DNA of 64,000 bases from Antitrichia curtipendula (lineage: Eukaryota > Streptophyta > Bryopsida > Hypnales > Leucodontaceae), in assembly GCA_951230915.1 (NCBI GenBank), contig OX579635.1:48050001-48114000 (forward strand), in the 5' to 3' direction. A program made the translations under genes and the position numbers. Position 1 is the stretch's first letter; the number at the start of each line of letters is the position of its first letter. Below are positions 17,574-58,897 of this stretch, one piece after another. The notes beneath the pieces were generated by a model. That model did not search any database and was not told the origin of the DNA. It saw only the letters and a program-made list of their open reading frames with translations.

Positions 17574-19847
17574 ATGGTCCTCTTTTACTTCCGTCTCATC
17601 GTCTTATTTGCATTCCTGCTCTCAGTAGCGAGTATGGGCACGCAAATCACCTTCCCGGACTTCTCATCTGAAGACAATCTCATGGCACTTGGAGATGCTG
17701 TGCACAATGCCTTCAATCGTTCCTACGTCTTCAACGCCAAAGGGCCATGTGGAGAGTTGTTGAACAAGAAAAAAATTCGTGTTCAAGATGTAGCAACAGG
17801 GAGAGCTGCTTCGTTCAGCACCTCGTTCTCTTTCACTTTCACCACTCACGGCTCACCTTGGGATAACAGCAGTGACCTCGGGAGTGGAATCGTCTTCAAG
17901 TTTGTGCAGAGCGTGTACTTTGATACAATGAAGGAATTCGTCTCGGAATGGGGATGGTCGAGTGGGTGCAGAGGCTTTCGAACTGATCCCAATCTCATCT
18001 ACAATCGTCCAGGCTTTGGTGTCATTATTGCTACGGATTACAACGCTAACCTCAAAGCGCCCAGCAACAATTACATCAGGATTGGCAACAACTCGGACCG
18101 GGAGTATGACATCTCAGCATACACGCACAACCTCTGTGGAAACGACACGCACTGCTCGTATTTCTCCAATGGGAGGATTTTCACGGCTTGGATTGATTTC
18201 AATAGCTCATCGCAGAGCCTGGAAGTGCGGCTTGCGAATGGATCCCATTCCAGCGTGAAGAAACCCTTGCAACCTCTGCTGCACATTCCCCATTACGAAA
18301 TGGCCAAGGCGCTTGGAGACGACGTGTACCTCACGTTTTGGGGAAGCTCAGATAACCATATCGAAACGCACGAGCTCCTGTCGTGGAGCTTCTTCAGTGG
18401 CGAGATTGACTTCACAAGCTTCTCAGAGTTTAACACTTTCCAAAGTCTTCTTCTTTTCTTGAAGGCGAGAACATGGACTGGTATCACTATAGGCGTTCTG
18501 GGCACGGTGGCTGCGTGGGCGATTATCAGATCCATATCTCGTTTGGCAACGAAATCGAGGTACCACTACCGCTACAAAGCGCTCGATTATACCGCAGGAC
18601 CGCACAAGTTCACGTATGCGGAGCTTCGCCAGGCAATGGAGAACTTTGATGAAAGAAACCTACTGGGAAGTGGCGCATCGGGGTCTGTGTACCGAGGCTC
18701 TTTGGAAGGGCCAATTGCACAAGAGGGCAAACTGATTGCCGTGAAGCAGATCCGAGTCTCGGAGTCCAAGCAAGCCGAGGCTCTCTTTCACGCTGAAATG
18801 GCCAGTCTCAGCCAAATTCGGCATCGGAACGTGCTGCAGTTGCAGCGCTGGTGCCAAGAGAAAGGACGATTGCTGTTGGTGTTGGACTACATGCCCAATG
18901 GAGGCCTCAATGAATGGCTGCACAAAAGTCGCGGCCATTTCCAACGCCAAGCTTTGTCTTTGCAGCTGCGGCAGTCCATTTTGGAAGGGGTGGGTGCAGC
19001 TCTGGAATACTTGCACGAGGATTGTCCGAGTGTTGTTCTCCACCGGGACATCAAGTCCAGCAATGTGTTGCTGGATGCAGATTTCAAAGCCCACTTAGGA
19101 GACTTTGGTTTTGCTCGCTTGATGGATCACCACATGCTAGACAAAACCACTTTACCTGCAGGAACTTTTGGCTACATGGCTCCTGAGATGCCCTATACTG
19201 GGAAAGCCACTAAGGAATCAGATGTTTATAGTCTTGGAATCTTGTTGCTTGAAATTATGTGTGGAAGGCGTCCCTTTGATGTGCTCACAAGAGAACCAGA
19301 GGATCTCATGTTGTTACATTTTGTTTGGCGAGCTCATGAAGCCGGGTCATTGTTGAGTGTGGTGGATCCAAGACTACTTCAAACTCTTCAACCTTCTAAG
19401 GCAATTCCTATTCAAGACCATGAACCCACATCTACAATTAATCTTCCTACTATACCAACAAGGTCTCTCAATTTGATTGAAAACATTCCTATCACATCTA
19501 TTGTGGACATGGACATTGAAGTCCGGAAATTAATGGTTGTACATCTCCTTCAATTGGGGCTACTATGTTGTCTTCCCAATCCAAAAGCCCGGCCATCTAT
19601 AGTACAAATGAATGGTATATTGCAACAAATACGAGATATGGAGAGTCTATCTAACACTGTCACTATAGCAATGCCTTCTTTGCCAACCACTAAGCCTTTG
19701 GGACTTTACCAGTCGTTGGAGTTCTCACAAACAATTTTAAGTCCCAATTTATTGGCACCTTCTTCTATCTCATTAACTTATGACAGATCCATTGTTGATA
19801 ATTCTACCTTGCAACAAGTTTTGGATAGTTTACACAAAGTTGATTAG
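17574..19847 (+). CDS. L-type lectin-domain receptor-like kinase
   Basis: This is a single-exon gene for a 757-residue plasma-membrane receptor kinase. I chose the ATG at 17574 because it opens a signal peptide (MVLFYFRLIVLFAFLLSVAS); an in-frame ATG 14 codons upstream would put a charged stretch first. A legume-lectin-like ectodomain (about residues 25-285) with several N-glycosylation sequons is followed by a transmembrane segment (about 300-320, GITIGVLGTVAAWAII). The cytosolic Ser/Thr kinase (about 350-650) has the glycine loop GSGASGSVYRG, the lysine in AVKQIRV, HRDIKSSNVLLD, GDFGFARL and GTFGYMAPE. It is an RD kinase with all catalytic residues, so it is probably active. Plant LecRLKs act in defence and wall or extracellular sensing. 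The ligand cannot be inferred. A roughly 100-residue Ser/Thr-rich tail follows the kinase. Confidence 0.93.
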   Translation: MVLFYFRLIVLFAFLLSVASMGTQITFPDFSSEDNLMALGDAVHNAFNRSYVFNAKGPCGELLNKKKIRVQDVATGRAASFSTSFSFTFTTHGSPWDNSSDLGSGIVFKFVQSVYFDTMKEFVSEWGWSSGCRGFRTDPNLIYNRPGFGVIIATDYNANLKAPSNNYIRIGNNSDREYDISAYTHNLCGNDTHCSYFSNGRIFTAWIDFNSSSQSLEVRLANGSHSSVKKPLQPLLHIPHYEMAKALGDDVYLTFWGSSDNHIETHELLSWSFFSGEIDFTSFSEFNTFQSLLLFLKARTWTGITIGVLGTVAAWAIIRSISRLATKSRYHYRYKALDYTAGPHKFTYAELRQAMENFDERNLLGSGASGSVYRGSLEGPIAQEGKLIAVKQIRVSESKQAEALFHAEMASLSQIRHRNVLQLQRWCQEKGRLLLVLDYMPNGGLNEWLHKSRGHFQRQALSLQLRQSILEGVGAALEYLHEDCPSVVLHRDIKSSNVLLDADFKAHLGDFGFARLMDHHMLDKTTLPAGTFGYMAPEMPYTGKATKESDVYSLGILLLEIMCGRRPFDVLTREPEDLMLLHFVWRAHEAGSLLSVVDPRLLQTLQPSKAIPIQDHEPTSTINLPTIPTRSLNLIENIPITSIVDMDIEVRKLMVVHLLQLGLLCCLPNPKARPSIVQMNGILQQIRDMESLSNTVTIAMPSLPTTKPLGLYQSLEFSQTILSPNLLAPSSISLTYDRSIVDNSTLQQVLDSLHKVD

Positions 19848-20549: not shown

Positions 20550-20559
20550 TGCAATGAAT
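20550..20559. repeat. Left target-site duplication of giant element
   Basis: TGCAATGAAT occurs here directly outside the left terminal repeat and again at 41409-41418 directly outside the right one. A 10-bp exact duplication fits Mutator-like elements (typically 8-11 bp). Confidence 0.8.
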
Positions 20560-20615
20560 GAGCGTTGCTAGCGCGTGAGCGGGGAGCGGGGAGCAGGAAG
20601 TGGTGAGCGGGGAGG
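20560..20615 (+). repeat. Left terminal inverted repeat
   Basis: Begins GAGCGTTGCTAGCGCGTGAG and continues through repeated GAGCGGGGAGC words. Compared with the right end read inward (GAGGAATGCTGGTATGTGAG), they share TGCT and GTGAGCG in register and end with the same TGGTGAGCGGGGAG. The right copy has about 16 extra bases. Confidence 0.8.
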
Positions 20616-20679
20616 GCAGATTTTAATTATTAAAAAGAAATTCTTCAAATAAGAAAATAAAGTTGAATGAACATGAATA

Positions 20680-20915
20680 AAAAATATGATGTAAACTGAT
20701 GGAAATGGATGAAAAAAAATCCGGATGTACGTAGAAATGGACGAAGCATGGGGCGGACAATAGATGAAATTGGATGAAAAAAGTAGATGAAAAGTAGACC
20801 CAAAAAGTAGATGAAAAGTGGACCAAAAAGTAGATGAAAAATTTGGATGACAAATGGGTAGCAAATTAGATGAAAGTGGATGAAGAAATTGGATGGGAAA
20901 GATGGGTGACAATAA
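20680..20915 (+). repeat. Left subterminal motif cluster
   Basis: At least ten spaced copies of GGATGAAAA or AGATGAAAAGT variants, all in the same orientation reading inward. The right end has the mirror-image cluster. Subterminal motif clusters are common transposase-binding regions in plant DNA transposons; that role here is inference. Confidence 0.65.
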
Positions 20916-21555
20916 ATGGGACACCTTCACAACATCAGAGCTTCAGAAATTGGAACTCGCTCATGAAAATGGATAACTACCCGAATGACAAACTCATCAA
21001 AATCCAAATGACTAACTGATGACAAGGATTCGCTAAAAAATATTGCCTTTTACGAGAACGACGACACTACATTTACAAAAGAGGGTTCAGCTAATTGAGG
21101 ACCTAAGACCGCGTAATAACAATGCTTTATAACCGTGAAAGACAATAGATCAGTGTTATAGAGAACTGATGTTTTGAAGTGGCTGCATGGTTAATGAACC
21201 TAGTTAATGAACCTAGTTAACTATGCATTCCTTCGTTGTACAGTTCGGAATCATAAAACATTTACACAGAATTGTAGCATTTCACTTGTACGCCAAAACT
21301 CAGAAGGTTCCATTGCTTTATGCAGTGTACTGAAATTAAATGTGGAAATTCATACAATGCTAATTCAAAACACAAAACATAATGTCTGAATCTAAAAAAG
21401 CAATACAGAGAACTCCAGTATATTTTTTTGATATGATGGCCTACTCCTACAAGGTTCAGAAAATGTAAATAGTGACCCTTCTGGTCTCACTACTACTTCA
21501 TTAATAACACTTGTGGTCACATGAAGATCTCTGGGAATGTATAAGCACTTTCTCT

Positions 21556-24500
21556 CTAATTAGGGTCTAAGTGGTTAAGTATCCCACTAAGAAGTATTAG
21601 CTTCACCTCATTGAAACTAAAACTGGGAGCATGAATGAAGCCATGTACTGGGGATTGCAGGTTACAGATGACGGTAAGAAGGAAATAAAGGTGCTTACAG
21701 TTTGACCACTGACCGCGCTTTCCTAAGGCCTTTGTCTTCATCTCTTTGAAATAAGGACACGTGCACTCTGGAAACGATGAAATCGTAAGCATGTATTGCT
21801 CAGTCCGCGGTTCTACTCCAGAAGTTAAACAAACTATGCATCCAAATCCAGGGTGAGGAACCATAGTCACTCTATGAATTTGTGCATTCAATATCATAGC
21901 TGAAGCGATATTGTTTGCATGTTTCCCTGTAGGTGGCTAGGTGCCTTGAGGTTCCGACGAATGATTTTTCCTGATCGTAATTTAGGATGTTCGTCAGGTG
22001 CCAATGGAATGGGATAAGCATTGACCAAGTCAACCCCACATTCTCCCCCAAACAACCTGCGAGGTGAAATTACTTCACGTTGAGGAAGTCTGAAGCCAGC
22101 TGATTCTAAGGCTAAAATCTCTTGCTTTGACAAGGCAGTGCCCCTTTTAACAGGCCAAATGTCAGGAACGGGGGGTTTAGACAACACCCACTTCCGCTTC
22201 GTCCCCTTCACACAACGTTCTATATCATCATTGCAAAAATAGAACTCCATACGCTCGTTTTTATTTTTCTTGTAATTCACCATCATACCTATATATGTTG
22301 GTGCTGCTGTGCTGACGCTATTTTGGACAATTCTTGTTGTGCATTTCTTCTTTGTATTCGCTTGAAGGGCAAAACATGCCTTTGCAGATGTTTGGGGAAG
22401 TCTTGCAATGTGCCAGGTCAGGACATCACAGTCGGTCTCTTGGATACATGATACATCGAAGGAAGGACCTTGAGTACGGCACTGGGATTCCTGCCGCGTT
22501 TCAATAAACAAGGGTACGTCTACTTCCACAGTTGGGCACACATCCTCTACAATTGGGGTTAGAGAAGGAGCACTTGTGAAAGCCTTCCACGATCTTGTCT
22601 GTACTCGGGGATGTGAGAAGTTCACTTTATCCGGTCTATGTGAATCATGCTCGCATCCCAAAGGGTGGTCCGCCTTTCGTTTCTGTGATCCAAATACTTC
22701 TTCACTTCAAAATGAGGTTGTCTACTAAAAAATTCTTGAACTGATGGAAGGCTTGAAATAGCTTCAGTGAGCACCTTCGGATTCCCGCTTCGTTGAGTTG
22801 ATCGTTGGGCAACGCGGAGTAGTAATTCTTCCTTTCCAGGACCCGTCCCCGCATCTCCGCCTTTAAGGTATTGGTAATACCTTACCATCTGCATAAACGC
22901 TCTGACAAAATCATCAACAGTGGCAATGTATAAATCGTTCCCACGATTTCTAGACTGTTGAAGCCACTTATTGTGTACAGTCTTGGCGAGGTTGCACGAG
23001 GGCATCTTAGCCTTCTCCGTGTCAAACAGATCCTGAAGACATCGGAAGCATGTCAAATTAGTATAAACGACTAACATCATTAATTCACTTGTCACTTGTC
23101 AAAACATAAAAATAAGAGTTGCTGAAGAAATACACTTACCAGTTGCATGAACCCCCCCCATTGCCGATAACGAAAGTTCCAAACGATGTAGGCCGTCTTC
23201 AATTGTGGCACCGGATGAGGTCCACCATACTTTAATCGCAGGTAACGTTCTTCAGATTGTTCCGTTGAAATGGCATTTTTGTACTGTTTGCATAGAAGTC
23301 GGTGTTGATCTTATAAGTCCGCCCGTATATCAGCCTTTGTATGCTTTTCCATGGATTGGGTCCAATGAAAAGGCAAGTCCGCTCTCGATTCTCCATGGGT
23401 ACACTAGTGTCACCTGATCCGTAGATAATTCGTACCGCATTCCAATTTGCTTGGGCACTATCTGCCATGAACCCTTTGAACTAAGTTTTAGGGACCCCAT
23501 GTCTCTGCAGAACTGAATTTAGGTTTGTCCAGAATATGACTTGTGCAATACAGGCTTCTGATTGCATGTCGCACATGGCAATGGTCATTACTCGACAGTA
23601 TACACTGTCATAAACGTGGCATGCCATGGTAGTCCATCCTTTTACCCGTTTCACATGATCAAACATCATCCAAGCATCCTGGAGGTCACCACCACTTTGC
23701 ATATGCTTGACCAAGTCTATTCCACTACCTAGACCTACTTCCGACATTTTGAAGACAAATACCTTGTCCTTGTCAGAGCCTTGACCTGGGAATTTGCTCT
23801 CTTGAACAAATGCCCAAGTACTTGCCCCCCGCAACTTTGTTATGCTATCCATAACTCCAAACCTCCTCAGGTACTTGAAAGAAGCGACCTCGTTACGAAT
23901 ACTGGGTGAACTGAAATACTTACATTTATCCAGGATAGGTACGAGTTCTTCAATATTCAAAGTCTTCTGCAATTCTCCATCAGGGCGTAGAAGAAGTTCA
24001 CCCAACAGTTCTTTTGTGGCCTCCAAAACAATGGCTGAATTTCTGCCAATTGGTGTCTTCTCCATTTGATCTCCTATTAGGCTTCGAGTCCTCTCCTTCA
24101 TGTCGCGAAGCTCACCATCCTTGACGGGATGCTGATGATCGCCGAGATGAACAAATGCACAAGTTATAAGCGGATTCCCCAAGACGTAATACACCCTCAC
24201 AGCGCAACGAGATATACAACTTGGCGCTTCCTTACAAATCTTGCAGACAAGGGTAGAGCCAGTTGGATGCGGTACTCCAATATCAAGCGGGCTAGGAGAG
24301 AAGCCTTCCCACTCCAACTCGTTTACTGGATTTGTTCTTTGCACTAGACCCAAGTACTCGCAATTCCCGTTCTCGCATCTGAGATGACCAACACATACGG
24401 AGGTACGAAACGACAAGCCATGACTGTTTGTTATATTTGTAGTAATCGTTTTCGTCCACACATGACCATCGTACCTCTTATCCATACCAATCATTTGTTT

Positions 24501-25245
24501 CGCATATGATGGAGCCCCCAACGAATCAACGGCTGGTAATTCAAAAATAACGTCGCCATTGAAATTCGAAGGAAGCACTGTAACCTTGTGTGTTGTAATT
24601 GTGTCGTAATCTATTTTAGACATAGCATTTTTACATCCCTTCCGTCCACGAAGTCCTTTCAAACAATCAATTACCGATGCTACAGAAGCAGTTTTGGTAC
24701 TGGGAATCACAGTAACAGTCTGCTCTCCCAAATTAGAACTAGGGACTGGAATATCTGACGAGCGGTCCCATGCTTTCAAAGTTGGTTCCGTGTTCTCAAT
24801 GTCAGAGTCATTGCTGAGAAGGGTTACTGTGAAGACACCAGGCTCAACTTTAGGAACCTTCATAGGTGGCGTCTGAAATGACGAAGAAGAAAAACGCTGA
24901 TCAAGCACTAAGTCTGCGGATTTCCGACCAATCAGAATTACTTACCCCATAGGCCCTATATTTCCCAGCTTTCAAGTGCCACAATCTATTCACGCCTTCC
25001 AAAATAGGTACTTGACCGACAGTGTGAGTTAGGACTTTCGTCTCTACGTCAAATATTTCTTCATCGATATGCAGAGAGTCCGCATGTAAGTTAAATCTAA
25101 TACCAAATCGAAAGGCGGACACCGAAGCGACACCATCAAGGTCCAGCGGAAATAGTATAGGAACCCCATCAGCGGCGCCATTCACGATCACCATATCCAG
25201 AAACTCTGACATTGCAAAATATTCCAATTCATAGCATGGACACAA
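21556..25245 (-). pseudogene. DDE/SWIM transposase of the giant element, degraded
   Basis: Exon 1 starts at 25245 or, more likely, at the internal ATG 25212 (MSEFLDMVIVNG) and ends at 24946 with donor GGG|GTAAGT. Exon 2 starts at 24872 after a pyrimidine-rich tract and runs to 23140. Exon 3 starts at 23032. Exon 2 encodes a Cys/His cluster (CxNxNC, VCKICKEAP, HLGDHQHP; FLYWCH/GCM-like zinc module). It then has an RNase-H-fold catalytic region with Asp in MMFDHVKR, Asp in GFMADSAQANWNAV, then ERTCLF and HWTQSMEKHTK. A SWIM finger (CTCPYF, then NCKH) lies at about 21780-21690. This copy is broken by TAG 23481-23483, a frameshift near 23370, TAA 23311-23313, and frame changes near 22640 and 21899. 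The first and third breaks lie in otherwise continuous homologous sequence. Transposition of this copy would need another source of transposase. Confidence 0.8.
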
Positions 25246-26583
25246 ACAATCTCACGATCACCATGTGACGCTCTCTAACACGTAAACTACGAACTCATAG
25301 TCCAGGGAGGTACATGAAATAACACAGCAAGCAAATAAACTGAATCCTGCATACCAAACGATGCAGAGGATGATAAATTATCTATAATTCAATGAAACCA
25401 ATATTAGGAACGCCTCATTATACAACTTTGGCGTTACGGCCGTCATTATATATAATGAAATTTATAATTAATTTTTTACCTCACTAGAAGTAACAACTGA
25501 GTTGGTTAAGAGGATTTCGGCCGTCCTACAAAACTAAGAATATAGACTCCTCCAACGTTAACATGTAAGCACATCGTATGCAATAAAATATAACCGGAAC
25601 ATTTGTAATAAAGACCAAATTCTATGACAAGGCAACCTTCCGAAGAGGCATTGCGATTGAAAAATGGATATCCCGGCCACTAATTAGGACGGTAGGCATT
25701 AACTTTTGTTCCCACAGTGATGGTACGAAGCTAATTAGGTAACAAAATACAATAAATGTCTGACAATAATTAAATACAATGTCAGCTTTCTCCAGCCAAT
25801 CATTCGACAATCAGTTACTTCAAAAGATGTATTTAAAGTGATAAACAAGGGAATCCTGACGGCTATGCGTCAAGATACATAGGCACGGAAGGAACATGAA
25901 TTACTAATATCCAGCGTCATGAAGATGCATATTATGTGATACACTATATTATTTGCTACTAATAACAAAACTGTGACATTACCGTTTGAGATGAATACAG
26001 TTCGATCATTCGTATCAACAACGACCCAGGAGTATTTAACGTGTATGAGTAATCATTATATAACATTCTGAAATAACCCAACATTATTTGACTATACGTG
26101 GGGGACCCTGAAGGCCATACCCTTCGAACAACTACTACTGTACATCAAAGGAATCTGGATTAGAAACAAACGTAACAGCATAAATGCCAATATCCATGAG
26201 TGTAATCGTGTCGAGTATGTTCGACACTGTCTATGCGTGTCCACCAGGGCTGATAAGGATTTTGTCACTATTGTAAGAGACCATTACGTAGAACTTCATA
26301 TTAGAATTTGAGAATACAGAAAATACTATTAAGTGACTCTATCAATTGATGATTAAGGCTAATAACATTAATGAACTTGTAAACTCACAACGCCATAATC
26401 GTTTTATAAATTATACTAATCGAATCACTGACACACTATCGACAAAATTTATCCCCCCAGACAGAAGGCACAAGATATATGGATTATCCATTACCTTAAG
26501 AAACAACGGATGGGGAATTTCATGACTGAGAAATATTGAAACACCGTCAGAGAAATCCAAGGTAAAGTCCATCCAAAGGACTA
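25246..26583. promoter_or_regulatory. Divergent intergenic region of the giant element
   Basis: A gap of about 1.3-1.6 kb separates the divergently read transposase and ParB-methyltransferase genes, so both promoters should lie here. The sequence is A/T-rich with several TATA-like words (for example TATATAATGAAATTTATAA near 25446). I cannot assign a start site. No other gene is seen. Confidence 0.4.
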
Positions 26584-26841
26584 ATGACGCACCAGTTCTC
26601 CCAGGAAGTCAAGGTCGGCGAGAAAGGATGGGGAGACTGGGAAGTGTGTGACGGCGGGGATCCAGCTGGCGCGTTGGAGACGAAACGAGCGGTAAGGAAC
26701 GGCGGGAAAGAAAAGGGCAGCGAGGAAGCCCGGACTGGCGCAGTGGTGCATTCCCTTCGACAAAATTGTTCTCCTTGCGTTTTTGATTTTCGACGTCGTT
26801 GGAGCGTGGACTATCTGAAGTTGGTTGCGAGCGAAGCAAAG

Positions 26842-29800
26842 ATGGATGGGGTTTACAACTTACGGCCAAGGGTGGGGAGGTCGAACGCCATCCCAGGACC
26901 TTCGGCAAACTCGGCACAGGCAATAGTGCGTCCGGAAGAAGCCTCTCCTCGAAACCAGGTAAGGGTTGTGAACTCTCAACTTCTCATCCTGTCTCGCATG
27001 CATGACTCAGTACGCGTCGCCCACGGCCTGAATAGCTGAATTCAGAGCTAGGTTTTATTAGGGTTAAAGGCAAGCCCAATCCGCTCCGCTCAAGGTAGCT
27101 GGTCACCTCATCGAGCGGGGGCCAAACCTGCCAAGCGTATTCATATTTCTTTTTTGCTTTCGTCTACGTGCTAAGGTCACATTCTCGTAAGCTTAGTATT
27201 AGCGTTGCATGGCCTGGTCATGGCGGAGCTCGTCTCGGCCCCGAAAGATTTCCCAGGGTCAAGGGGTCATACATAACTTCTTCGGATCGTTCTGGTTTCG
27301 GGACGGAGCTCAGTCCTTTTCGGGAACACCACCCGCTCCCCGTGACCATCTGGTCACCACACCAGAGGCCAGACAAGCCAGCCAATCCCTTTTGGATATA
27401 TTTTCTTTTTGTTTCTCCAATTGGGTCTCACGTCACGTTTTCTTCAGTTTTGCATTCTGCTGCATGGCTTGGTCACGTGGGCTCTCGTCTCGGCCTCGAG
27501 AGAAGTCCCATGGTCACGGGGTCATGCATAACTTCTTCTGATCGTTCTGGTTTCGGGACGGAGCTAAGTCCCTTTCGGGAACACCACTCGCTCCCCGTGA
27601 CCATCTGGTCACCGCACCAGAGGTTGGACAAGCCAGCCAGTCCCTTTTGGATATATATTTTTTTTGTTTCTCCAATTGGGTCTCACGTCACGTTCTCATC
27701 AGTTTTGCATTCTGTTGCATGGCCTGGTCATGGCGGAGCTCGTCTCGGCCCCGAAAGATTTCCCAGGGTCACGGGGTCATGCATAACTTCTTCTGATCGT
27801 TCTGGTTTCGGGACGGAGCTCAGTCCCTTTCGGGAACACCACCCGCTCCCCGTGACCATCTGGTCACTGCACCAGAGGTTGGACAGGCCAGCCAATCCCT
27901 TTTGGATATATCTTTTTCTTGTTTCTCCAGCTGGGTCTCACGTCACGTTCTCATCAATTTTGCATTTGCTGCATGGCCCGGTCAAGGCAGAGCTCGTCTC
28001 GGCCCCGAGAGATTACCCATGGTCATGGGGTCATGCATAACTTCTTCTGATCGTTCTGGTTTCGGGACGGAGCTAAATCCCTTTCGAGAACACCACCCGC
28101 TCCCCGTAACCATCTGGTCACCGCACCAAAGAGAGGACAAGCTAGCCAATCTCTTTTGGATATATTTTTTTTTTGTTTCTCCAGTTGGGTCTTACGTCAC
28201 GTTCTCACCAGTTTTGCATTCTGTTGCATGGCCTGGTCATTGCCGAGCTCGTCTCGGCCCCGAGAGATTTCCCAGGGTCATGGGGTCATGCATAACTTCT
28301 TCTGATCGTTCTGGTTTCGGGACGGAGCTAAGTCCCTTTCGGGAACACCACCCGCTCTCCGTGACCATTTGGTCACCGCACCAGAGGTTGGACAAGTCAG
28401 CCAATCCCTTTTGGATAAATTTTTTTTTTGTTTCTCCAGTTGGGTCTCATGTCACGTTGTCACCAGTTTTGCATTCTGCTGCATGGCCTGGTGATTGCCG
28501 AGCTCGACTCGGCCCCGAGAGATTTCCTATGGTCATGAGGTCATGCATAACTTCTTCTGATCGTTCTGGTTTCGGGACGGATGTTAGTCCCTTTTGGAAA
28601 CACCACCCGCTCCCCGAGACCATCTGGTCACTGCACCAGAGGTTGGACAGGCCAGCCAATCCCTTTTGGATATATCTTTTTCTTGTTTCTCCAGTTGGGT
28701 CTCACGTCACGTTCTCATCAATTTTGCATTTGCTGCATGGCCCGGTCAGGGCAGAGCTCGTCTCGGCCCCGAGAGATTTCCCATGGTCATGGGGTCATGC
28801 ATAACTTCTTCTGATCGTTCTGGTTTCGGGACGGAGCTAAATCCCTTTCGAGAACACCACCCGCTCCCCGTAACCATCTGGTCACCGCACCAAAGAGAGG
28901 ACAAGCTAGCCAATCTCTTTTGGATATATTTTTTTTTTGTTTCTCCAGTTGGGTCTTACGTCACGTTCTCACCAGTTTTGCATTCTGCTGCATGGCCTGG
29001 TCATTGCCGAGCTCGTCTCGGCCCCGAGAGATTTCCCAGGGTCATGGGGTCATGCATAACTTCTTCTGATCGTTCTGGTTTCGGGACGGAGCTAAGTCCC
29101 TTTCGGAAACACCACCCGCTCTCCGTGACCATTTGGTCACCGCACCAGAGGTTGGACAAGTCAGCCAATCCCTTTTGGATATATTTTTTTTTTGTTTCTC
29201 CAGTTGGGTCTCACGTCACGTTGTCACGAGTTTTGTATTCTGCTGCATGGCCTGGTCATTGCCGAGCTCGTCTCGGCCCCGAGAGATTTCCCATGGTCAT
29301 GAGGTCATGCATAACTTCTTCTGATCGTTCTGGTTTCGGGACGGAGCTAAGTCCCTTTCGGGAACACCACCCGCTCTCCGTGACCATTTGGTCACCGCAC
29401 CAGAGGTTGGACAAGTCAGCCAATCCCTTTTGGATAAATTTTTTTTTTGTTTCTCCAGTTGGGTCTCACGTGACATTGTCACCAGTTTTGCATTCTGCTG
29501 CATGGCCTGGTCATTGCCGAGCTCGTCTCGGCCCCGAGAGATTTCCTATGGTCATGAGGTCATGCATAACTTCTTCTAATCGTTCTGGTTTCGAGACGGA
29601 TCTCAGTCCCTTTTGGAAACACCACCCGCTCCCCGAGACCATCTGGTCACCGCACTAGAGGTTGGACAAGCCAGCCAATCCCTTTTGGATATATCTTTTT
29701 CTTGTTTCTCCAATTGGGTCTCACGTCACGTTCTCATCAATTTTGCGTTTGCTGCATGGCCCGGTCAGAGCAGAGCTCGTCTCGGCTCCGAGAGATTTCC

Positions 29801-32800
29801 CATAGTCATGGGGTCATGCATAACTTCTTCTGATCGTTCTGGTTTCGGGACGGAGCTAAGTCCCTTTCGAGAACACCACCCGCTCCCCGTAACCATCTGG
29901 TCACCGCACCAAAGAGAAGACAAGCCAGCCAATCCCTTTCGGATATATTTTTTTTTTGTTTCTCCAGCTGGGTCTCACGTCACGTTCTCACCAGTTTTGC
30001 ATTCTGTTGCATGGCCTGGTCATTGCCGAGCTCGTCTCGGCCCCGAGAGATTTCCCAGGGTCATGGGGTCATGCATAACTTCTTCTGATCGTTCTGGTTT
30101 CGGGACGGAGCTGAGTCCCTTTCGGGAACACCACCCGCTCTCTGTGACCATTTGGTCACCGCACCAGAGGTTGGACAAGTCAGCCAATCCCTTTTGGATA
30201 TATTTTTTTTTTGTTTCTCCAGTTGGGTCTCACGTCACGTTGTCACCAGTTTTGCATTCTGCTGCATGGCCTGGTGATTGCCGAGCGCGTCTCGGCCCCG
30301 AGAGATTTCCTATGGTCATGAGGTCATGCATAACTTCTTCTAATCGTTCTGGTTTCGAGACGGATCTCAGTCCCTTTTGGAAACACCACCCGCTCCCCGA
30401 GACCATCTGGTCACTTCACCAGAGGTTGGACAAGCCAGCCAATCTCTTTTGGATATATCTTTTTCTTGTTTCTCCAGCTGGGTCTCACGTCACGTTCTCA
30501 TCAATTTTGCATTTGCTGCATGGCCCGGTCATTGCAGAGCTCGTCTCGGCCCCGAGAGATTTCCTATGGTCATGGGATCATGCATAACTTCTTCTGATCG
30601 TTCTGGTTTCGGGACGGAGCTAAGTCCCTTTCGGGAACACCACCCGCTCTCTATGACCATTTGGTCATCGCACCAGAGGTTGGACAAGTCAAACAATCCC
30701 TTTTGGATAAATTTATTTTTTGTTTCTCCAGTTGGGTTTCACGTCACGTTTTCATCACTTTTGCATTCTGCTGCATGGCCTGGTCATTGCCGAGCTCGTC
30801 TCGGCCCCGAGAGATTTCCCATGGTCAAGGGGTCATGCATAACTTCTTCTGATCGTTCAAGTTTCGGGACGGATCTTAGTCCCTTTCGGGAACACCACCC
30901 GCTCTCCATGACCATTTGGTCACCGCACCAAAGAGAGGACAAGCCAGCCAATCTCTTTTGGATATATTTTTTTTCTGTTTCTCCAGTTGGGTCTTACGTC
31001 ACGTTCTCACCAGTTTTGCATTCTGCTGCATGGCCTGGTCATTGCCGAGCTCGTCTCGGCCCCGAGAGATTTCCCATGGTCAAGGGGTCATGCATAACTT
31101 CTTCTGATCGTTCAAGTTTCGGGACGGATCTTAGTCCCTTTCGGGAACACCACCCGCTCCCCGTGACCATTTGGTCACCGCACCAAAGAGAGGACAAGCC
31201 AGCCAATCTCTTTTGGATATATTTTTTTTTTGTTTCTCAAGTTGGGTCTCACGTCACGTTCTCACCAGTTTTGCATTCTGCTGCATGGCCTGGTTATTGC
31301 CGAGCTCGTCTCGGCCCCGAGAGATTTCCTATGGTCATGGGGTCATGCATAACTTCTTCTGATCGTTCTGGTTTCGGGACGGAGCTAAGTCCCTTTCGGG
31401 AACACCACCCGCTCTCCGTGACCATTTGGTCACCGCACCAGAGGTTGGACAAGTCAGCCAATCCCTTTTGGATATATTTTTTTTTTGTTTCTCCAGTTGG
31501 GTCTCACGTCATGTTGTCACCAGTTTTGCATTCTGCTGCATGGCCTGGTGATTGCCGAGCTCGTCTCGGCCCCGAGAGATTTCCTATGGTCATGAGGTCA
31601 TGCTTACTTCTTCTGATCGTTCTGGTTTCGGGACGGATGTTAGTCCCTTTTGGAAACACCACCCGCTCCCCGAGACCATCTGGTCACTCCACCAAAGGTT
31701 GGACAAGCTAGCCAATCCCTTTTGGATATATCTTTTTCTTGTTTCTCCAATTGAATCTCACGTCACGTTCTCATCAATTTTGCATTTGCTGCATGGCCCG
31801 GTCAGGGCAGAGCTCGTCTCGGATCCGAGAGATTTCCCATAGTCATGGGGTCATGCATAACTTCTTCTGATGGTTCTGGTTTCGGGACGGAGCTAAGTCC
31901 CTTTCGAGAACACCACCCGCTCCCCGTAACCATTTGGTCACCGCACCAAAGAGAGGACAAGCCAGCCAATCTCTTTTGGATATATTTTTTTTTTGTTTCT
32001 CCAGTTGGGTCTTACGTCACGTTCTCACCAGTTTTGCATTCTGTTGCATGGCCTGGTCATTGCCGAGCTCGTCTCGGCCCCGAGAGATTTCTCAGGGTCA
32101 TGGGGTCATGCATAACTTCTTCTGATGGTTCTGGTTTCGGGACGGAGCTAAGTCCCTTTCGGAAACACCACCCGCTCTCCGTGACCATTTGGTCACCGCA
32201 CCAGAGGTTGGACAAGTCAGCCAATCCCTTTTGGATAAATTTTTTTTTTGTTTCTCCAGTTGGGTCTCACGTCACGTTTTCACCAGTTTTGCATTCTGTT
32301 GCATGGCCTGGTCATTGCCGAGCTCGTCTCGTCCCCGAGAGATTTCCCATGGTCATGAGGTCATGCATAACTTCTTCTGATCGTTCTGGTTTCGGGACGG
32401 AGCTAAGTCCCATTCGGGAACACCACCCGCTCTCCGTGACCATTTGGTCACCGCACCAGAGGTTGGACAAGTCAGCCAATCCCTTTTCGATAAATTTTTT
32501 TTTTGTTTCTCCAGTTGGATCTCACGTCACGTTGTCACCAGTTTTGCATTCTGCTGCATGGCCTGGTCATTGCCGAGCTCGTCTCGGCCCCGAGAGATTT
32601 CCCATGGTCATGGGGTCATGCATAACTTCTTCTGATCGTTCTGGTTTCTGGACGGATCTTAGTCCTTTTCGGGAACACCACCCGCTCCCCGTGACCATCT
32701 CGTCACCGCACCAGAGGTTGGACAAGCCAGCCAATCCCTTTTGGATAAATTTTTTTTTTGTTTCTCTAGTTGGGTCTCACGTCACGTTGTCATCAGTTTT

Positions 32801-35800
32801 GCATTCTGCTGCATGGCCTGGTCGGTGCCGAGCTCGTCTCGGCCCCGAGAGATTTCCCATGGTCATGTGGTCATGCATAACTTCTTCTGATCGTTCTGGT
32901 TTCGGGACGGATCTTAGTCCTTTTCGGGAACACCACCCGCTCCCCGAGACCATCTGGTCAGCGCACCAGAGGTTGGACAAGCCAGCCAATCCCTTTTGGA
33001 TATATCTTTTTCTTGTTTCTCCAGTTGGGTCTCACGTCACGTTCTCATCAGTTTTGCATTTGCTTTATGGCCCGGTCATGGCAGAGCTCGTCTCGGCCCC
33101 AAGAGATTTCCCAGGGTCATGGAGTCATGCATAACTTCTTCTGATGGTTCTGGTTTCGGGACGGATGTTAGTCTCTTTCGGGAACACCACCCGCTCCCCG
33201 TGACCATTTGGTCACCGCACTAGAGGTTGGACAAGTCAGCCAATCTCTTTTGGATAAATTTTTTTTTTGTTTCTCCAGTTGGGTCTTACGTTTCGTTGTC
33301 ACCAGTTTTGCATTCTGCTGCATGGCCTGGTCATTGCCGAGCTCGTCTCGGCCCCGAAAGATTTCCCAGGGTCATGGGGTCATGCATAACTTCTTCTGAT
33401 CGTTCTGGTTTCGGGACGGATCTTAGTCCCTTTCGGGAACACCACCCGCTCCCCGTGACCATTTGGTCACCGCACCAGAGGTTGGACAAGCCAGCCAATC
33501 TCTTTTGGATAAAATTTTTTTTTGTTTCTCCAGTTGGGTCTCACGTCACGTTGTCATCAGTTTTGCATTTTGCTGCATGGCCTGGTCATTGCCGAGCTCG
33601 TCTCGGCCCCGAAAGATTTCCTAGGGTCATGGGGTCATGCATAACTTCTTCTGATCGTTCTGGTTTCAAAACAGATCTCAGTCCCTTTCGGAAACACCAC
33701 CCGCTCCCCGAGACCATTTGGTCACTGCACTAGAGGTTGGACAAGCCAGCCAATCTCTTTTGGATATATCTTTTTCTTGTTTCTCCAGCTGGGTCTCACG
33801 TCACGTTCTCATCAGTTTTGCATTTGCTGCATGGCCCGGTCATAGCCGAGCTCGTCTCGGCCCCAAGAGATTTCCCAGGGTCATGGAGTCATGCATAACT
33901 TCTTCTGATGGTTCTGGTTTCGGGACGGATCTTAGTCCCTTTCGGGAACACCACCCGCTCCCCGTGACCATTTGGTCACCGCACTAGAGGTTGGACAAGC
34001 CAGCCAATCTCTTTTGGATATATTTTTTTTTTGTTTCTCCAGTTGGGTCTTACGTCACGTTCTCATCAGTTTTGCATTCTGCTGCATGGCCTGGTCATTG
34101 CCGAGCTCGTCTCGGCCCCGAGAGATTTCCCATGGTCATGGGATCATGCATAACTTCTTCTGATTGTTCTGGTTTCGGGACGGAGCTAAGTCCCTTTCGG
34201 GAACACCACCCGCTCCCCGTGACCATTTGGTCACCGCACTAGAGGTTGGACAAGTCAGCCAATCTCTTTTGGATAAATTTTTTTTTTGTTTCTCCAGTTG
34301 GGTCTCACGTCACGTTCTCATCAGTTTTGCATTTGCTGCATGGCCCGGTCATGGCAGAGCTCGTCTCGGCCCGAGAGATTTCCTAGGGTCATGGGGTCAT
34401 GCATAACTTCTTCTGATCGTTCTGGTTTCGGGACGGAGCTCAGTCCCTCTCGAGGAAACCACCCGCTCCGCTGTGACCATCTAGTCACCGCACCTCAGGC
34501 CGGACAAGCTAGCCAATCCCTTTTGGATATATTTGTTTTTGTTTCTCCTGTCGGTCTCATGTCACGATCCCTCAGTTTTGTTTATTGCTGCATGGCTTGG
34601 TCACGTGGGGCCTCGTCTCGGCCTCGAGAGAAGTCGATTGGTCACGGGATCATGCATAATTTCTTTCGATCGTTTTTGTTTTATGACGGAGCTCAGTCCC
34701 TCTCGAGGAGACCACCCGCTCCGCTGTGACCATCTGGTCACCGCACCAGAGGTTGGACAAGCCAGCCAATCTCTTTTGGATATATTTTTTTTTGTTTCTC
34801 CTATTGGGTCACACGTCACGTTCTCTTCAATTTTGCATTCTGCTGCATGGCCTGGTCATGGCAGAGCTCGTCTCGGCCCCGAGAGAAGTCCCAGGGTCAC
34901 GGGGTCATGTATAACTTCTTTCAGTCGTTCTTGTTCTGGTGACGGAGCTCTGTCCCTTTCGGGAAGACAACACGCGCCTTGTGACCATCTGGTCAAAGGG
35001 TCACGAGGTCATGCACATATTTCCTTGACTGGTATGCGTCCAATTGACGGGGCTAAGCCTTGATCGGGAGTTCTCACCCGTTCCTCTGTGTTCTGGTGGT
35101 CACCGCACGAGGGAGCGGGCCATGCCTGCCAAGCATGTTCGCTTTTTGTTTTTTCCATTGGTCGATTTGTTATAGTCACGACCTCTTATATTCGGTCTTT
35201 CTATGCTGCTTGGCTTGATCACCGGGAACTTTATGCTGGCCCCGAGAGGGACTCTGGATGCATGTTCTTATGGGTCAAATATAGTATCCTTTTATTTTTA
35301 TGTCCGACATACGTGCTTGTTCTACACAGTTTTGTCCGTTTTTTTAACCGTGTACTAATTGTGTAGTCTTCTCTATTCTCTATATTGCTAGCAGGTGCGG
35401 GCTTCTGAGGATTTAATGCAAGAGGATACTGGACCGGTTGGTGTTACAGTTGTCCATTCAACCGGCGCAGAAGTTGGTGTCCCTGAGCTTCCTGAGGAGG
35501 TTCCCATGGCAGTGGTAAACCTTGACAATCTATTACGTGACCTAGATCAAGCACTGGATGATATGTATAGGGATGGTCGCATGCCCCCTCCTGAGTCTAC
35601 TTGTACTTCACTGGGATCCAATGATGTTGAGGTTCATGACTTCTGTACATGTAATCATCAAGATGATGAGGTTACCTCTGCACTAGATGGAGACAAGGAC
35701 ATTTATATCTTGTGCTGTGGAAACTACAGATCCTTAGCAGAGAAATGCATATGTGGCATTTAGTTTGTTTTATTGGGGGGCCGTGATTGAATCTCCTGGA

Positions 35801-38800
35801 TTGTTCAATCCAATAAGTTCATTCTCTTAAGGATATAAACAAGGTTTATCATTGGCTCACACACCCATAAGTCTACCATTCATTGATGGGAGTAATATCA
35901 GTATTTATTAATTTTGTGTTTCATGTGTGTGGCTAATAGTGGAAGGAACCATACGATTGCTCCACCGACGAGGTCATCGAGGTTGACGAGCTGGAGGATG
36001 ATAGAATTCGGGGAATTGAACCCCACTACATGGAAGATGACATTCGGCAACCCCAAACGATGGACACAGTTTCTATCATTTCCAGTCTGAGGCTCACTTT
36101 CTCTGATCAGTCTCGTATGAAGATACCTTTATGTAGGATGGTTCCAATGCCAATGGTACGACCAACCCTGGAATGTAACCTTACACTGTTAGAGAATCAA
36201 TTTAGTCGTGGATACGACGAAGGCGCAAGAGTATTCTACATCTCTACATCTGATGAGCAGGGGCAATCAGCTGTATTTTCAGATGCTGAGAAAACTGAAT
36301 GGGGACCACATTGGAATGCGGCGAACGACAAGTTCAACGTATTCTTGAAGTCGCAGACATCGTTGAAGCATTTGCTGGATTACAAGTTTTATGTCTGTGA
36401 TGGTAATCACAGACAAATTGCTTGGATGAAGCACATCCAGAGGCTTCACAGCATCGAGGCGACTTGGCATGTCAGTGTTGATGCTATTGTCCTCGACACT
36501 AGGAATCGAATTGGAGTGGCTATGTAGGCAATGCACGACATAAACAAGTAAGCGAGGTCATGCTGGGTTCATTCATGTGTTGGAGTTTCTATAATTCTGG
36601 TATTGATTCAATTCATTCATGTTTCTAGTGATATTTGATGTTCTTGTCATTCTCTGGTTCAGGCAGACGGAGAATTCTCATATTAAAACGAACCTCGTAC
36701 ATACCCTATATCGGGTCCAGAAGTACGGGGTCATGGGACTTGAGAAATTCCATGAGCTCCTTAGTCCAAAAGAAGCGCACACTTGTAGCCAAAATTCTCG
36801 CAAGACTTGGTACAGTATGCCGCTTGAGATCTTTACATTGTTCATATTCAAGGTATGAAGTTCTGTCTATTTGATGATATTGCATGCTTTGTATGAGTGA
36901 AGGATCACTTCGTTGTACTCTAAAATGGTGCTACCGTGTTGAGGTCCGAAATCGATTTTCTCTTTCTTCAGCAAGACATTGCGTCGGTTGCTGATGCCGT
37001 AGTCAGGAAGTATAATGAAGATACTCCACCAAGTGAAGCTACGAAGGAGGAAGTGGCAACGGCCATGCGAGTTTCGATTAAAGATTCTACGGAGAAGCTC
37101 TACAAGAAACTGTCAAAGATTGTTGCGGTTGCGAATCCCGCGCTTGGTTCTGAGTGGTTGAAGGAGGTATTTTGTCTTCCTTTATTCAATTATGTGAAGT
37201 CAGATGTTTCCATTTCGATTCTTCTCACTCTCTTTTCATTGATTGTCTGCAGATTGAGAGGCATTGGAGCTTATATTCTGTCCCTGAATTGACATTGGAG
37301 AAGTTACAAATGATTGCGACATGCAATACGAGTCCATCATTCAAAGTGAGGTGGCTGAAATGGATGAATTCCTCTGGCCCCTCACGAGAGGCACGTAGAT
37401 TTCCGGCCAAACCGATCAACGAGGAGAGGTTATTACAGTTTCTTGCAAAGGCATGTTGGTATGCTGAGGTAAGCATTGGAATTGTCTTGTTTGGTGCTTT
37501 TTGAATAATCCATCTATTGTATTTCTTCAATGTGTAGGATATTTTGATGGTGCATGAGACCCTTAATATTTTGTCACATCATCCTGTGCCCAAATCGAGG
37601 ACTCTGCTTCTGAAATGTTTGATGCAATCATTCGATCTGATAACATTTCTATCGATCTCACTGTCGCTATGGAGCCGAAGACCCTGTTAGAATATATCGA
37701 GAGTTGGCGCATGAAGCTCTGGGAACATGCGTACACGGGGGTGTTCAAGGGTGCTGATGCATACAAGAAGTCTGAGTCGTTCAAAGATTACAGAGGGTCT
37801 ATTCTGGCTGTCAAGCGAGTTATATACCGGTACAGTGTTTTTGCCCTTTCCTTGTTGGTCAGGTCATTGTGTATCGGACAATATACTTTAATTGATTCAC
37901 TTTATAAGTTCTGTCAATAGCCTTGAATTCAAAGTGGACCTCGGGCCCAATGGAAGACGGGCTAGGAGGCGTCATTGCACCCTCCACTTTTCCCTTCCTG
38001 ATACTATGTATTTTCGGGGTGATGTAGGTACTTCAAGTTTGAGTTGTACATCAAGAAGGCCATCTCCAAAGAAGATCTACCGCCGTTCCTTACGACATGG
38101 TTGGATCGCTCTTCTCCAGACTGCATGTTTTCTCCTATGCAGTTGAAGAATTGGACCAGTGCTCACCTGCAAGCCTGCCCGTGGTACCTCGAGTGCAACT
38201 TCGGCACTATTCCACCCAAAGAGGAAGCACTCTTTGACACTTTGAATGACACTGGGATTGTGGACCCAGAGTTCGATGAGTTCGCTGGTCTGGATCCCGA
38301 TACTCGAGCGAAGGCCATAAAACGACGGGATATATCAGACAAGAAGAAACTGGAGAAGCTGGAGGAGGCTAAGAAGAAGACCGAGGACAGCAAGAAGAAG
38401 AGACTGGCCGCTCAGGTTGAGAAGGACCAGGAGAAGTCGAAGAAGAGAGGGACAAAGAGGAAAGCCTACACTCCGGATCCCCAACCTGCCACAAGTGCAA
38501 CTGACGTTAGGGAAGGGTCATCTGGCTTCTCCCTTACTCAAGAGAGACTTGTACATGGACTGACACCAACGGTTCAAACTCTTCCTGCCGTTCCAGACAT
38601 TGATGAGTGCATACTGAACTTGTCAGTGGGTTCCTTACCTATAGATGAAAAGGCCTTCGATGACGTCCTCGCCTTTCTAGACATGGTTAGTCATGTTAAC
38701 ATTTATTTGTTCGTGCATTATTGGAACATGGATAGAATACATGTCAATTGAAGGTCTTTAGAACATGTTCGTTCTGGCCATGGTGTGATGCTCCAATTGC

Positions 38801-40192
38801 ATGTTTAGGTGAATTAACTGACACCTCTTTGTACTCTGCAGCACTGTACTGATAAGGACAGGTACTTCGATGGTGTATTGAGTACTCAAGAGGCAATGGA
38901 TCTCATCTTTGTGGATGTTCCTGAAGGTCTACATGTGCCGACTGTGTCTGCTCCGCCTGCCTCGATTCCCGACTGGAATGAGTTCAAGAAAGGGTTCCTA
39001 GTTCCCGTTTTTGACTTTGCGAAAGAGTACCTCCACGACAAGGGCGCCTTATTGGTGATGTATCCAGCGCCCTCCACTCGACACAAGAGTCACCTTCTCG
39101 GATGTTGCAAGACGTACAATTTTAGAATTCTTCTTACGTGGTTCGGCATGAACCACCTACATCTCACATCGCCAGTTGATCAAACCAAAACGGTAATTAC
39201 ATTTCTTTATTTTTATATTTTGTCAAATCTTGTGATTCTTTGATCTATTGTATGTTAACCTCTCCATTGTTTGCAGACCATGCGATTCTCAATCTCTCTT
39301 TTAGTGAAGGAGTCGGGACCCAAAACCGAATCGGAGTTTCCATTCCAGTTTGTTCCATCCCATCAAGAGGTGGGTGTGGATGTGGCTAGGGACGATATAC
39401 TCCAGAATTTCTGCAACAAAGAAGATGTCACCATGAATGGTTCCATTCCGTGGAGAGGTCCTCGAGAGAAGGCGCGACAATTCATGCATATGCTTGTCGA
39501 GGCGTTATCGGAACCAGGGGACGTCGTGGTAGACTGCACAGCAGCAACAGGTAACAAATCTTCTCTAATTCATTGATTTTTTTAACCAAGACCAAACTGA
39601 AAGGGATTTTCAGAAGTAATTTTTTTTATTCGCATGGATGTTTTCAGGATCAAGCATTCAAGCATGCCGTGCATCGCGCCGGCACGTCTTGGCATTTGAG
39701 GAGGATAAGGAGATTTTTGACGCTCTGATTGCACCGGTTCTACGCATGGATGGGTATTCTCGACCAGCACCGGCACAGAATATTTCAGAAATTCAGGATG
39801 TGGATGAAGAGGACGTGGAGCCTGAGCATGTTGTGAAGACATCTCGATTCAGTAAGTAAGTTTAACTCGAAAATCTATTCTTTACATTGTCTATTCTCAT
39901 TCCACTAAGCATTCAGTCTAATTCTCTCTTCATTCCATTATCCAGGCAGGCCAAGAAAGTGAGGTCTCTGACACATGTGCCGTTCTTTGGGAAGCCTGAG
40001 TTCTTTCCAAGCCCCCCTAAACCATTTAGGCTACCTATGTATGCTGAGTCCAACGCTGGAGAGTTTATTGCCCTTGAGCTAAAGCCAAGCTCTCGAGCTC
40101 GGTGGGTAGATCCTCGTGTTCTAGACTTCGTGGATGACTGTGCTATTGAGTCACAGTCAGAAACGTCAAACAGCGAGGGTAGTACAATATGA
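26842..40192 (+). CDS. ParB-domain / beta-class DNA methyltransferase-like fusion (12 exons)
   Basis: Exons joined by GT-AG introns in phase: 26842-26958, 35395-35670, 35940-36547 (or 36523), 36663-36852, 36972-37166, 37253-37468, 37600-37829, 38028-38685, 38842-39192, 39277-39550, 39648-39855, 39946-40192. The product is about 1,180-1,190 residues. The N-terminus has MDGVYNLRPR. Exon 3 encodes a ParB/sulfiredoxin-like domain with YVCDGNHRQIAWMKHI. Exon 8 has a highly charged Lys/Glu coil. Exons 9-11 form a beta-class amino-methyltransferase order: motif IV position DLIFVDVPEG, later the helix PREKARQFMHMLVEAL, then motif I position PGDVVVDCTAATGSS. Beta-class enzymes usually have DPPY-like and DPFxGxG motifs, so both are altered and activity is uncertain. 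The start at 26842 is in a good context, but the frame is open upstream to 26584. TAG 36525-36527 is avoided only by the 36523 donor. Confidence 0.75.
27207..35100 (+). repeat. Tandem array of about 31 units of 255 bp
   Basis: Using GCATGGCCTGGTCA as anchor, units start at 27207, 27462, 27717, 27971, 28226 and so on to 34845. Spacing is almost always 255 bp, with a recurrent 254-bp variant (GCATGGCCCGGTCA) at 27971, 28735, 29754, 30518, 31791, 33065, 33829 and 34338. Those variants mark higher-order blocks of 2-5 units. Each unit has palindromes GTGACCATYTGGTCAC (often imperfect) and TCTCGGCCCCGAGA, and a T-run of about 9. Degenerate half units flank the array (about 27090-27200 and 35100-35260). 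The array fills intron 1 of the ParB-methyltransferase gene. Long open frames across it result from 255 being divisible by three. The 254-bp units break them, so I do not call it coding. Confidence 0.95.
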
Positions 40193-41139
40193 GATCTCTC
40201 TATATCCTAAACTTCCAAACCCTACTTTTATATCTTCTGTATATGCTTATGTCCCTAAATTGGGAATTATTTTCTCTACATTGTTGCCGGTCCTATATTT
40301 ATTTCTGCTGAATGCATTGTCTACTTTTTGCCATCTTCCTGCAATATTGTGCTTGTCGTATCATCCCTTGTCCTTCGTATTACATATCATTCTCTTGATG
40401 TGCCCTTCGAGGACCGTAATGTTTCCATTTTTATTACTGTGTCTAGAACTTACTTATATACGAATCATATATATAATTTCGTTGACCGCGTATTGAACTT
40501 GGTATTTGTGTTTTGGTACCTCTGAACCTGATAGTCCCGTGTTGCGTGAGCCCTAAACCCTAAACGCATCTCTTGGTGTCGAGACGGGACTATATTAATT
40601 TTATTCGTTCATTAAACCACGTGTTTGATTTCATAAAATACTTATCATTGTGAACTATATTTCCCAAAAATTTGTCATACCTGTTCGAAGAAGCCAACAC
40701 TCCCGAAGTCTTCTTGGGCCCAAGACATGGACCTTGAAGACCTCTTGCCCATGCACATGCCCTGGGTTGGGCTGTCCGTTCTGCATTTGTCTTCCTTTGC
40801 GTAATCTGCCACTCTTTTTTGTCTTCGGTTGTACACATTAGTTTAGGATTTGAAATTGCATTGTTATCCAAGCATTAATGTTAGAGGATTATTTTGTCCA
40901 GATTATCTCGCGGAGCTTTTTACACTGCGAAATACGAACACCCTCTCCGTGTCAGTCGTCGTGCACTTCTTTCAGCCATGTCGTGTAATTGTCTACTAAC
41001 CACTTTGAAGTACTACACTATGTACTCGACTAATCACAACATGTAGAGGCTTCGTTTTCCAAAAACCGCACATGCTACAAAATTGCCTTCGCCGGCTATT
41101 GTCACATTCTAAATGAACTAGGATACAAGTTCTTCATCA
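40193..41139. other. 3' region of the giant element, no gene
   Basis: Downstream of the methyltransferase stop codon (40190-40192). It probably includes the 3' UTR. No coding segment is recognised. Two CCCTAAA words at about 40551 are too few to be telomeric. Confidence 0.5.
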
Positions 41140-41262
41140 GTTTGCATCCAATTTTTTATCCACTTTTTCATCCACTTTTTCATTTAATTTATCATCCACC
41201 TTCTTCATCCACTTTTCATCCACTTTTCATCCACTTTTCATCCAATAGCATCAAGTCCTCCC
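41140..41262 (-). repeat. Right subterminal motif cluster
   Basis: Eight or more copies of TTTTCATCCACT or close variants (the complement of GTGGATGAAAA) mirror the cluster at the left end of the giant element. Confidence 0.65.
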
Positions 41263-41340
41263 TCAACTTTTTCCTAAACTTTAATCTATTTTCAAATTTC
41301 TCACTTTCCAAAAATTATATTATAGTTCTAATATTGTGGC

Positions 41341-41408
41341 TCCCCGCTCACCAATTCCCGCTTCCCGCTCGCTGCTCGCCGCTCCACGCTCACATACCAG
41401 CATTCCTC
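41341..41408 (-). repeat. Right terminal inverted repeat
   Basis: Read inward from 41408 it begins GAGGAATGCTGGTATGTGAG and continues GTGGAGCGGCGAGCAG, matching the left terminus in register. It is longer than the left copy by about 16 bp. Confidence 0.8.
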
Positions 41409-41418
41409 TGCAATGAAT
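41409..41418. repeat. Right target-site duplication of giant element
   Basis: TGCAATGAAT, identical to 20550-20559 on the other side of the element. Confidence 0.8.
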
Positions 41419-45365: not shown

Positions 45366-45564
45366 TTGTGGTTCTCCTGAGAATGAACGTCAATGGGAAT
45401 ATGGGAGGGTGCAGACGAAGCTCCTATCGACTCTATAAGTTGAAACTTAGCACTGAGGTAAACTGGACCAAGCAATGAACAACCTGACCTTGTTTTTCAA
45501 TGGAAAATTTTGCATTGTCATTCGCTTGTCAAGCTGTTTTTTGTAGTCGTCGATCACGCCACAG

Positions 45565-58875: not shown

Positions 58876-58897
58876 GGATACCTCCACTGGTGAGTCT

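Follow-up and report, generated by a model that had tools for sequence, protein, structure and literature searches.

A family of large inverted-repeat transposons with a resident ParB–methyltransferase-like gene in a moss genome

RESULTS

A transposon with two divergent genes

We analysed a 64-kb stretch of the genome of the moss Antitrichia curtipendula (contig OX579635.1, positions 48,050,001 to 48,114,000; hereafter the window), in which positions 20560–41408 are occupied by a genuine terminal inverted repeat (TIR) transposon. The element carries a transposase gene on the minus strand and, on the plus strand, an intron-rich accessory gene with ParB-like and methyltransferase-like segments, and it belongs to a family of at least 27 such elements. 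An initial annotation of this DNA had proposed inverted termini, mirrored subterminal motifs, a 10-bp direct repeat and the divergent gene pair, all of which were borne out. The inverted arms (20577–20614 and 41340–41377; 38 nt, 87% complementary) are accompanied by subterminal pairs. Aligned locally, the terminal 500 bp of either side scored 98, whereas 300 random 500-bp pairs taken outside the element averaged 23.0 and reached 68 at most. The exact 10-bp sequence TGCAATGAAT occurs twice in the 64 kb, abutting either end of the element. This count is weak on its own, since at least two occurrences were also obtained in 9 of 100 shuffles; what makes the duplication persuasive is that exact 10-bp repeats of their own flank other insertions of the family (flanks compared by eye).

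Both genes are broken in the window copy, which is a dead fossil. The transposase gene shows more frame changes than would be expected at introns. The corrected model of the accessory gene (plus strand, 26842–40192) comprises 12 exons and 1191 codons (Table 1), with one in-frame stop at codon 327 and the loss of the exon 7 acceptor; all other junctions are GT–AG. A frameshift in exon 7 was rejected as an alternative in view of the acceptor dinucleotides given in Table 1. The lesions of six other full-length copies, described below, sit elsewhere; one stop is common to two copies, and a duplicated pair share theirs. Intron 1 holds a tandem array of 255-bp units that accounts for more than one third of the element. 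A coding role for this array was rejected, its periods being 254/255 and the three codon positions varying alike among the 12 units sampled.

Table 1. Positions of the features of the transposon within the window
Feature	Positions	Strand	Remarks
Left target-site duplication, TGCAATGAAT	20550..20559	+
Left terminus	20560..21059	+	TIR and subterminal GGATGAAA-type motif cluster
Transposase gene, decayed	21691..25211	-	2 in-frame stops in aligned parts
Exon 1	26842..26958	+	Predicted from frame and splice donor; DNA-level match in 6/6 other full copies
255-bp tandem array	27206..34995	+	30.6 units, inside intron 1
Exon 2	35395..35670	+
Exon 3	35940..36547	+	Putative ParB/sulfiredoxin-like domain (CDGNHR)
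TAG stop in exon 3	36525..36527	+	Gln codon in most relatives reaching there
Exon 4	36663..36852	+
Exon 5	36972..37166	+
Exon 6	37253..37468	+
Exon 7 acceptor, lost	37592..37593	+	AA here; AG in 6/6 other copies
Exon 7	37594..37829	+
Exon 8	38028..38685	+
Exon 9	38842..39192	+	First half of methyltransferase fold
Motif IV position	38914..38928	+	DVPEG (phage relatives DLPYG/DPPYN)
Exon 10	39277..39550	+
Motif I (SAM-binding loop)	39532..39550	+	DCTAATG; continues into exon 11
Exon 11	39648..39855	+
Exon 12	39946..40192	+	Includes stop codon
Right terminus	40909..41408	+	TIR and mirrored motif cluster; 12-bp tandem at 41141–41244
Right target-site duplication, TGCAATGAAT	41409..41418	+

Recurrence of the element in the host genome

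The 400-Mb assembly (303 contigs) was searched with parts of the element, all counts being lower bounds. The left 500 bp gave at least 44 matches, 32 of them longer than 300 bp, the right 500 bp at least 46, of which 30 are near full length, and exons 8–9 at least 45. Before pairing, 12 of the 44 left and 16 of the 46 right matches were excluded as partial, together with five of the 45 exon matches that were second pieces of listed copies. Among the matches listed, 28 of the 32 longer left ends are followed within 60 kb by exon matches and by a right end in the same orientation; 27 of these 28 paired elements hold the full exon 8–9 stretch and one, 3.6 kb long, only part of it. Likewise, all 27 full-length exon 8–9 matches listed at 95% or above sit inside elements with paired ends, and, by eye, each of these 27 elements contains a transposase in the opposite orientation.

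Twenty of the 27 were compared by four probes alone; the window copy and six others were read whole. All six of the latter present the same succession of left end, transposase, exon 1, array, exons 2–12 and right end, with insertions within the transposase in some. They measure 14.3 to 22.1 kb and their arrays count 5.5 to 21.6 units, as against 30.6 in the window. The copies at C1:32.6 and C1:32.7 Mb (contig and position) share their flanks and represent one insertion that was duplicated. Exact 10-bp duplications were found at six sites, namely the window, C6, C10, C1:22.8, the C1:32 pair and C2:25.9 (C10:22.3 and C3:41.8 being left out), and no target-site duplication was found at C1:43.39 Mb. 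Gene pair, orientation and duplication thus recur in other copies, the pattern for which the initial annotation had suggested looking. Boundaries that exclude the methyltransferase-like gene, which it had named as counter-evidence, were seen at none of the 28 paired ends, but the 3.6-kb derivative at C10:22.3 retains only exons 9–12 and the ends, and four of the 32 left ends are unpaired. Of nine near or shorter copies, the one at C3:41.8 showed, in the 16 kb read, no more than a transposase and part of exon 1, with no motif IV.

Older relatives and selective constraint

The same plan was found in a much older element at C2:25.9 Mb (25937626–25952904; 15279 bp), whose two termini are present and are flanked by an exact direct repeat of 10 bp, GTTGCTACTT. 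Its exons 8–9 are only 68% identical to those of the window at the DNA level, its transposase lies upstream on the opposite strand with 65% amino acid identity, and a different tandem array, of period 233/476 and with no clear homology to the 255-bp unit, lies between the transposase and exon 2; exon 1 was not found in this element. Transposase matches of 79% and 89%, respectively, were also seen by eye on the opposite strand near the accessory-gene copies at C5:12.1 (77%) and C5:9.76 (90%). With exons 9–11 of the C2 copy as query, at least 42 matches were obtained, many of them at 85–91%, so several subfamilies exist.

Between the window and the subfamily copies, the ratio of non-synonymous to synonymous substitution rates (dN/dS) of the accessory gene was 0.14 (C5:12.1) and 0.16 (C5:27.3), and that of the transposase 0.24–0.26; for C2:25.9 versus the window, dS was saturated. 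Near copies gave 0.39–0.79 for the accessory gene and 0.52–0.86 for the transposase. This pattern therefore points to old constraint followed by relaxed decay after insertion, and the accessory protein is, judging from these ratios, under long-term selection.

A second subfamily (L043–L050, for example) accounts for about 15 accessory-gene matches of 1008 bp each among those listed. The eight copies read are approximately 97–98.5% alike, and four of them are free of stops in exons 9–11, as in a younger subfamily. Contig C5, on which many accessory-gene copies of greater divergence lie, may, at a guess, be a sex chromosome or a region of low recombination. Just outside the C2 element, a second SWIM-like match (L038, 6445–6726; 33% identity) lies in the opposite orientation, perhaps in a neighbouring element.

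The accessory protein

The C-terminal part of the accessory protein matched PHROG 3008 (E 1.8e-8), PF01555 (E 9.3e-5; 22.9 bits, under the curated 26.7), the NCBIfam CcrM model (0.0013) and PDB 5hfj (0.0075), and phage DNA methylases match 95% of the domain (E 7e-4). The fold and the motif order, IV ... X–I, are those of beta-class N6A/N4C DNA methyltransferases. Catalytic motif IV in this class has the consensus [DNS]PP[YFW]. In the phage alignment, however, DLIFVDVPEG stands opposite DFIFADLPYG, DLILCDLPYG and DAIITDPPYN, and the aromatic residue of the canonical motif is absent in all 31 sequences read, the fourth residue being Glu or, in two, Lys. These comprise 12 database relatives (10 with DVPEG), eight near copies, among them the window copy and the derivative at C10:22.3 (six with DVPEG), the C5:27.3 and C5:12.1 copies, the C2:25.9 copy (DIPEG) and eight second-subfamily copies (six with DVPEG). 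The loop for S-adenosylmethionine (SAM) has the sequence DCTAATG in the window, while DCTAGTG is found in six of the eight second-subfamily copies. Because motif IV lacks its aromatic residue throughout, ordinary amino-methylation of DNA bases by this protein appears doubtful. The earlier suggestion that it may modify the element is weakened to that extent; active methylation is weighed below as one of the less probable readings.

For exon 3, structure prediction gave, at modest confidence (pLDDT 69.6), a fold like that of the ParB/sulfiredoxin superfamily, and Pfam gave no ParB/sulfiredoxin match in 15 members. The protein thus combines a beta-class methyltransferase fold with a weakly supported ParB/sulfiredoxin-like domain.

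Protein databases were searched with exon pieces, since the gene appears there as exon-sized open reading frames (ORFs), and 48 relatives at E up to 1 were found among 148 candidates; 12 exon-9 relatives were aligned, P0139 being excluded. P0146, a relative of the accessory gene, and P0001, the best relative of the transposase, lie on contigs of one and the same length, 555475, and hence probably on a single one, which suggests that the two genes are linked in another assembly. A scan of viral contigs with exon 9 returned two matches, L001 and L002, the former being a chance match to a phage protein that contains IFVDVPEG. In scans of the viral contigs nothing matched exon 3, exon 8 or the transposase, and a scan of genome contigs was negative too.

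Neighbourhood of the element

An open 771-codon ORF (17532–19847, plus strand), which we take to resemble an L-type lectin receptor kinase, ends about 700 bp ahead of the element. On the other side, 226-bp direct repeats, 96% identical, at 57236–57461 and 62903–63128 delimit what is presumably a Copia-like retroelement (57236–63128), and diverged direct repeats at 45132–46641 (239 nt at 90%, 162 nt at 88%) may belong to another mobile element.

DISCUSSION

The recurrence of one plan throughout the family and in a much older element indicates that the accessory gene is resident rather than a one-off capture, in support of the initial view that a methyltransferase-like gene is the resident cargo of a large TIR transposon. 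On balance, we lean towards a TIR family, provisionally Mutator-like, in which a large transposase is accompanied by a divergent accessory protein that aids the element and is likelier to be a factor binding SAM or DNA than an ordinary methylase. Several observations weigh against this interpretation. Besides the four unpaired left ends, no credible match to the accessory gene was found in 18 kb at C6:27.25 Mb, where a transposase relative lies, and the accessory-gene copy at C5:27.3 has no transposase match in the 17 kb read. As to the Mutator label, Pfam found no family at all, and hence no MULE domain, in three transposase ORFs of the window, and neither a transposase family nor MULE in five database relatives.

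What speaks for the label is the structure of the element. Mutator-like elements (MULEs) generate target-site duplications of 8–11 bp, and the inverted termini and 10-bp duplications observed here are those expected of this superfamily; a CTC..CKH motif at 21691–21765, spotted by eye, is presumably SWIM-like, but Pfam found no SWIM match in a 1278-aa relative. The term 'Mutator-like' used in the initial annotation therefore holds for the duplication length, the termini and this motif, but not for the missing MULE match, and we retain it provisionally. Alternatively, the family might belong to the KDZ/Zisupton type or to some other group of giant TIR transposons, an assignment that is possible but not probable. 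It would suit the absence of a MULE match. Zisupton duplications are 8 bp long, however, shorter than the 10 bp found at all six sites showing one, and up to an E of 1 the five database relatives did not match the Pfam KDZ profile either. A giant element that combines an accessory gene with a large SWIM-bearing transposase would also fit KDZ, some of whose traits are given in excerpts of PMC12477816.

How the accessory protein might serve the element may be considered by analogy with VANDAL elements of Arabidopsis. Excerpts of PMC5735166 report tandem target repeats, changing rapidly, in the introns of VANC21 and VANB21 of VANDAL21. Like VANDAL21, which is of Mutator type, the present, provisionally Mutator-like family combines an accessory gene with intronic tandem repeats that turn over between relatives; unlike VANC, as far as the latter is described there, its accessory protein has a methyltransferase fold, and anti-silencing, shown experimentally for VANC, is here argued from analogy. 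The protein could thus bind the DNA of its element, the candidate targets being the intron-1 arrays and/or the mirrored subterminal motif clusters, and could help the element to be expressed or to transpose, either shielded from silencing or re-marked so as to escape it. The replacement of the motif IV aromatic residue by Glu makes a SAM-binding or former-methyltransferase DNA-binding factor likelier than an ordinary base methylase. It is tempting to speculate that a plant transposon lineage recruited a phage-type ParB–methyltransferase, altered its catalysis and now uses it as a SAM-binding factor against silencing, aimed at the fast-evolving arrays that the subfamilies maintain in intron 1 of its own gene. 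The VANDAL/VANC strategy would then have been invented independently, starting from a DNA-modification enzyme, but we regard this fuller scenario as unlikely.

Other roles deserve to be weighed against the one we favour. The protein may be an active methyltransferase that writes N6-methyladenine (6mA) or N4-methylcytosine (4mC) on the element, marking it for the transposase or against silencing. We think this unlikely, although the fold is collinear with phage DNA methylases from motif IV to motif I, the GxG SAM loop is kept in the second subfamily (DCTAGTG, as above), the protein is strongly constrained and, in excerpts of PMC12477816, 4mC or 6mA is predicted for a comparable Ectocarpus protein. 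The motif IV aromatic residue, however, is missing in every sequence read, and the N6-adenine methylase of DIRS1-type retroposons, which are likewise mobile elements that have retained a methylase fold, is described as catalytically inactive (PMC3537659, in excerpt); DIRS1, unlike the present family, is a tyrosine-recombinase retroelement, and the main text of that article makes no mention of 'ParB'. A purely structural helper of transposition, acting in synapsis or end binding as a ParB-like clamp with no tie to epigenetic marks, would account for the ParB-like domain and for the mirrored motif arrays at both ends, but would call for a separate reason why the methyltransferase half has been conserved for so long; we judge it improbable. 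Passive capture of a host gene in the manner of Pack-MULEs, functionless for the element, would be in keeping with the common capture of genes by MULEs (excerpts of PMC13317346) and with the presence of at least one accessory-gene lesion in each of the seven full-length copies, window included (two representing one duplicated insertion). It is nonetheless most improbable in view of a full-length 12-exon gene that recurs in at least 27 elements, shares its plan with an element of 68% identity and shows dN/dS of 0.14–0.16.

Genes of this kind are not confined to the present family. Sola transposons generate duplications of 4 bp. According to excerpts of PMC12477816, Sola1-1_Ec32 of the brown alga Ectocarpus is a 21.5-kb DNA transposon family with a gene for a 1104-aa ParB-like and methyltransferase protein opposite the transposase, and the article cites green and red algal transposons with ParB–methyltransferase accessory genes. 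The moss family resembles Sola1-1_Ec32, likened here from its description, in that a single gene with both domains lies within a TIR transposon, on the strand opposite the transposase; it differs in its plant host, 10-bp duplication, DVPEG at motif IV and intron-1 array. The rarity that the initial annotation had claimed for such elements is accordingly qualified, and since the algal cases are already published, the present family is a variant rather than the first case. The same succession of an N-terminal ParB-like part and a methyltransferase in one protein is described for Wolbachia adenine methyltransferases (PMC3089641, in excerpt), which, unlike the moss genes, are bacterial prophage genes. 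We found no plant MULE with a ParB–methyltransferase gene in the literature searched, and 'methyl' has no occurrence in the main text of a MULE survey (PMC6446971). DN4MT1 of Marchantia is likewise absent from three papers checked for it. What is new with respect to the algal cases is the plant-type transposon, the different superfamily and the altered active site.

The family extends transposon-borne ParB–methyltransferases, described for algal elements in the literature consulted, to a plant genome, in which they are carried by at least 27 elements. A methyltransferase that has been conserved with Glu in motif IV raises the question of how it serves the transposon. The intron-1 arrays, which vary in both sequence and length, make a VANDAL-like model of self-recognition directly testable.

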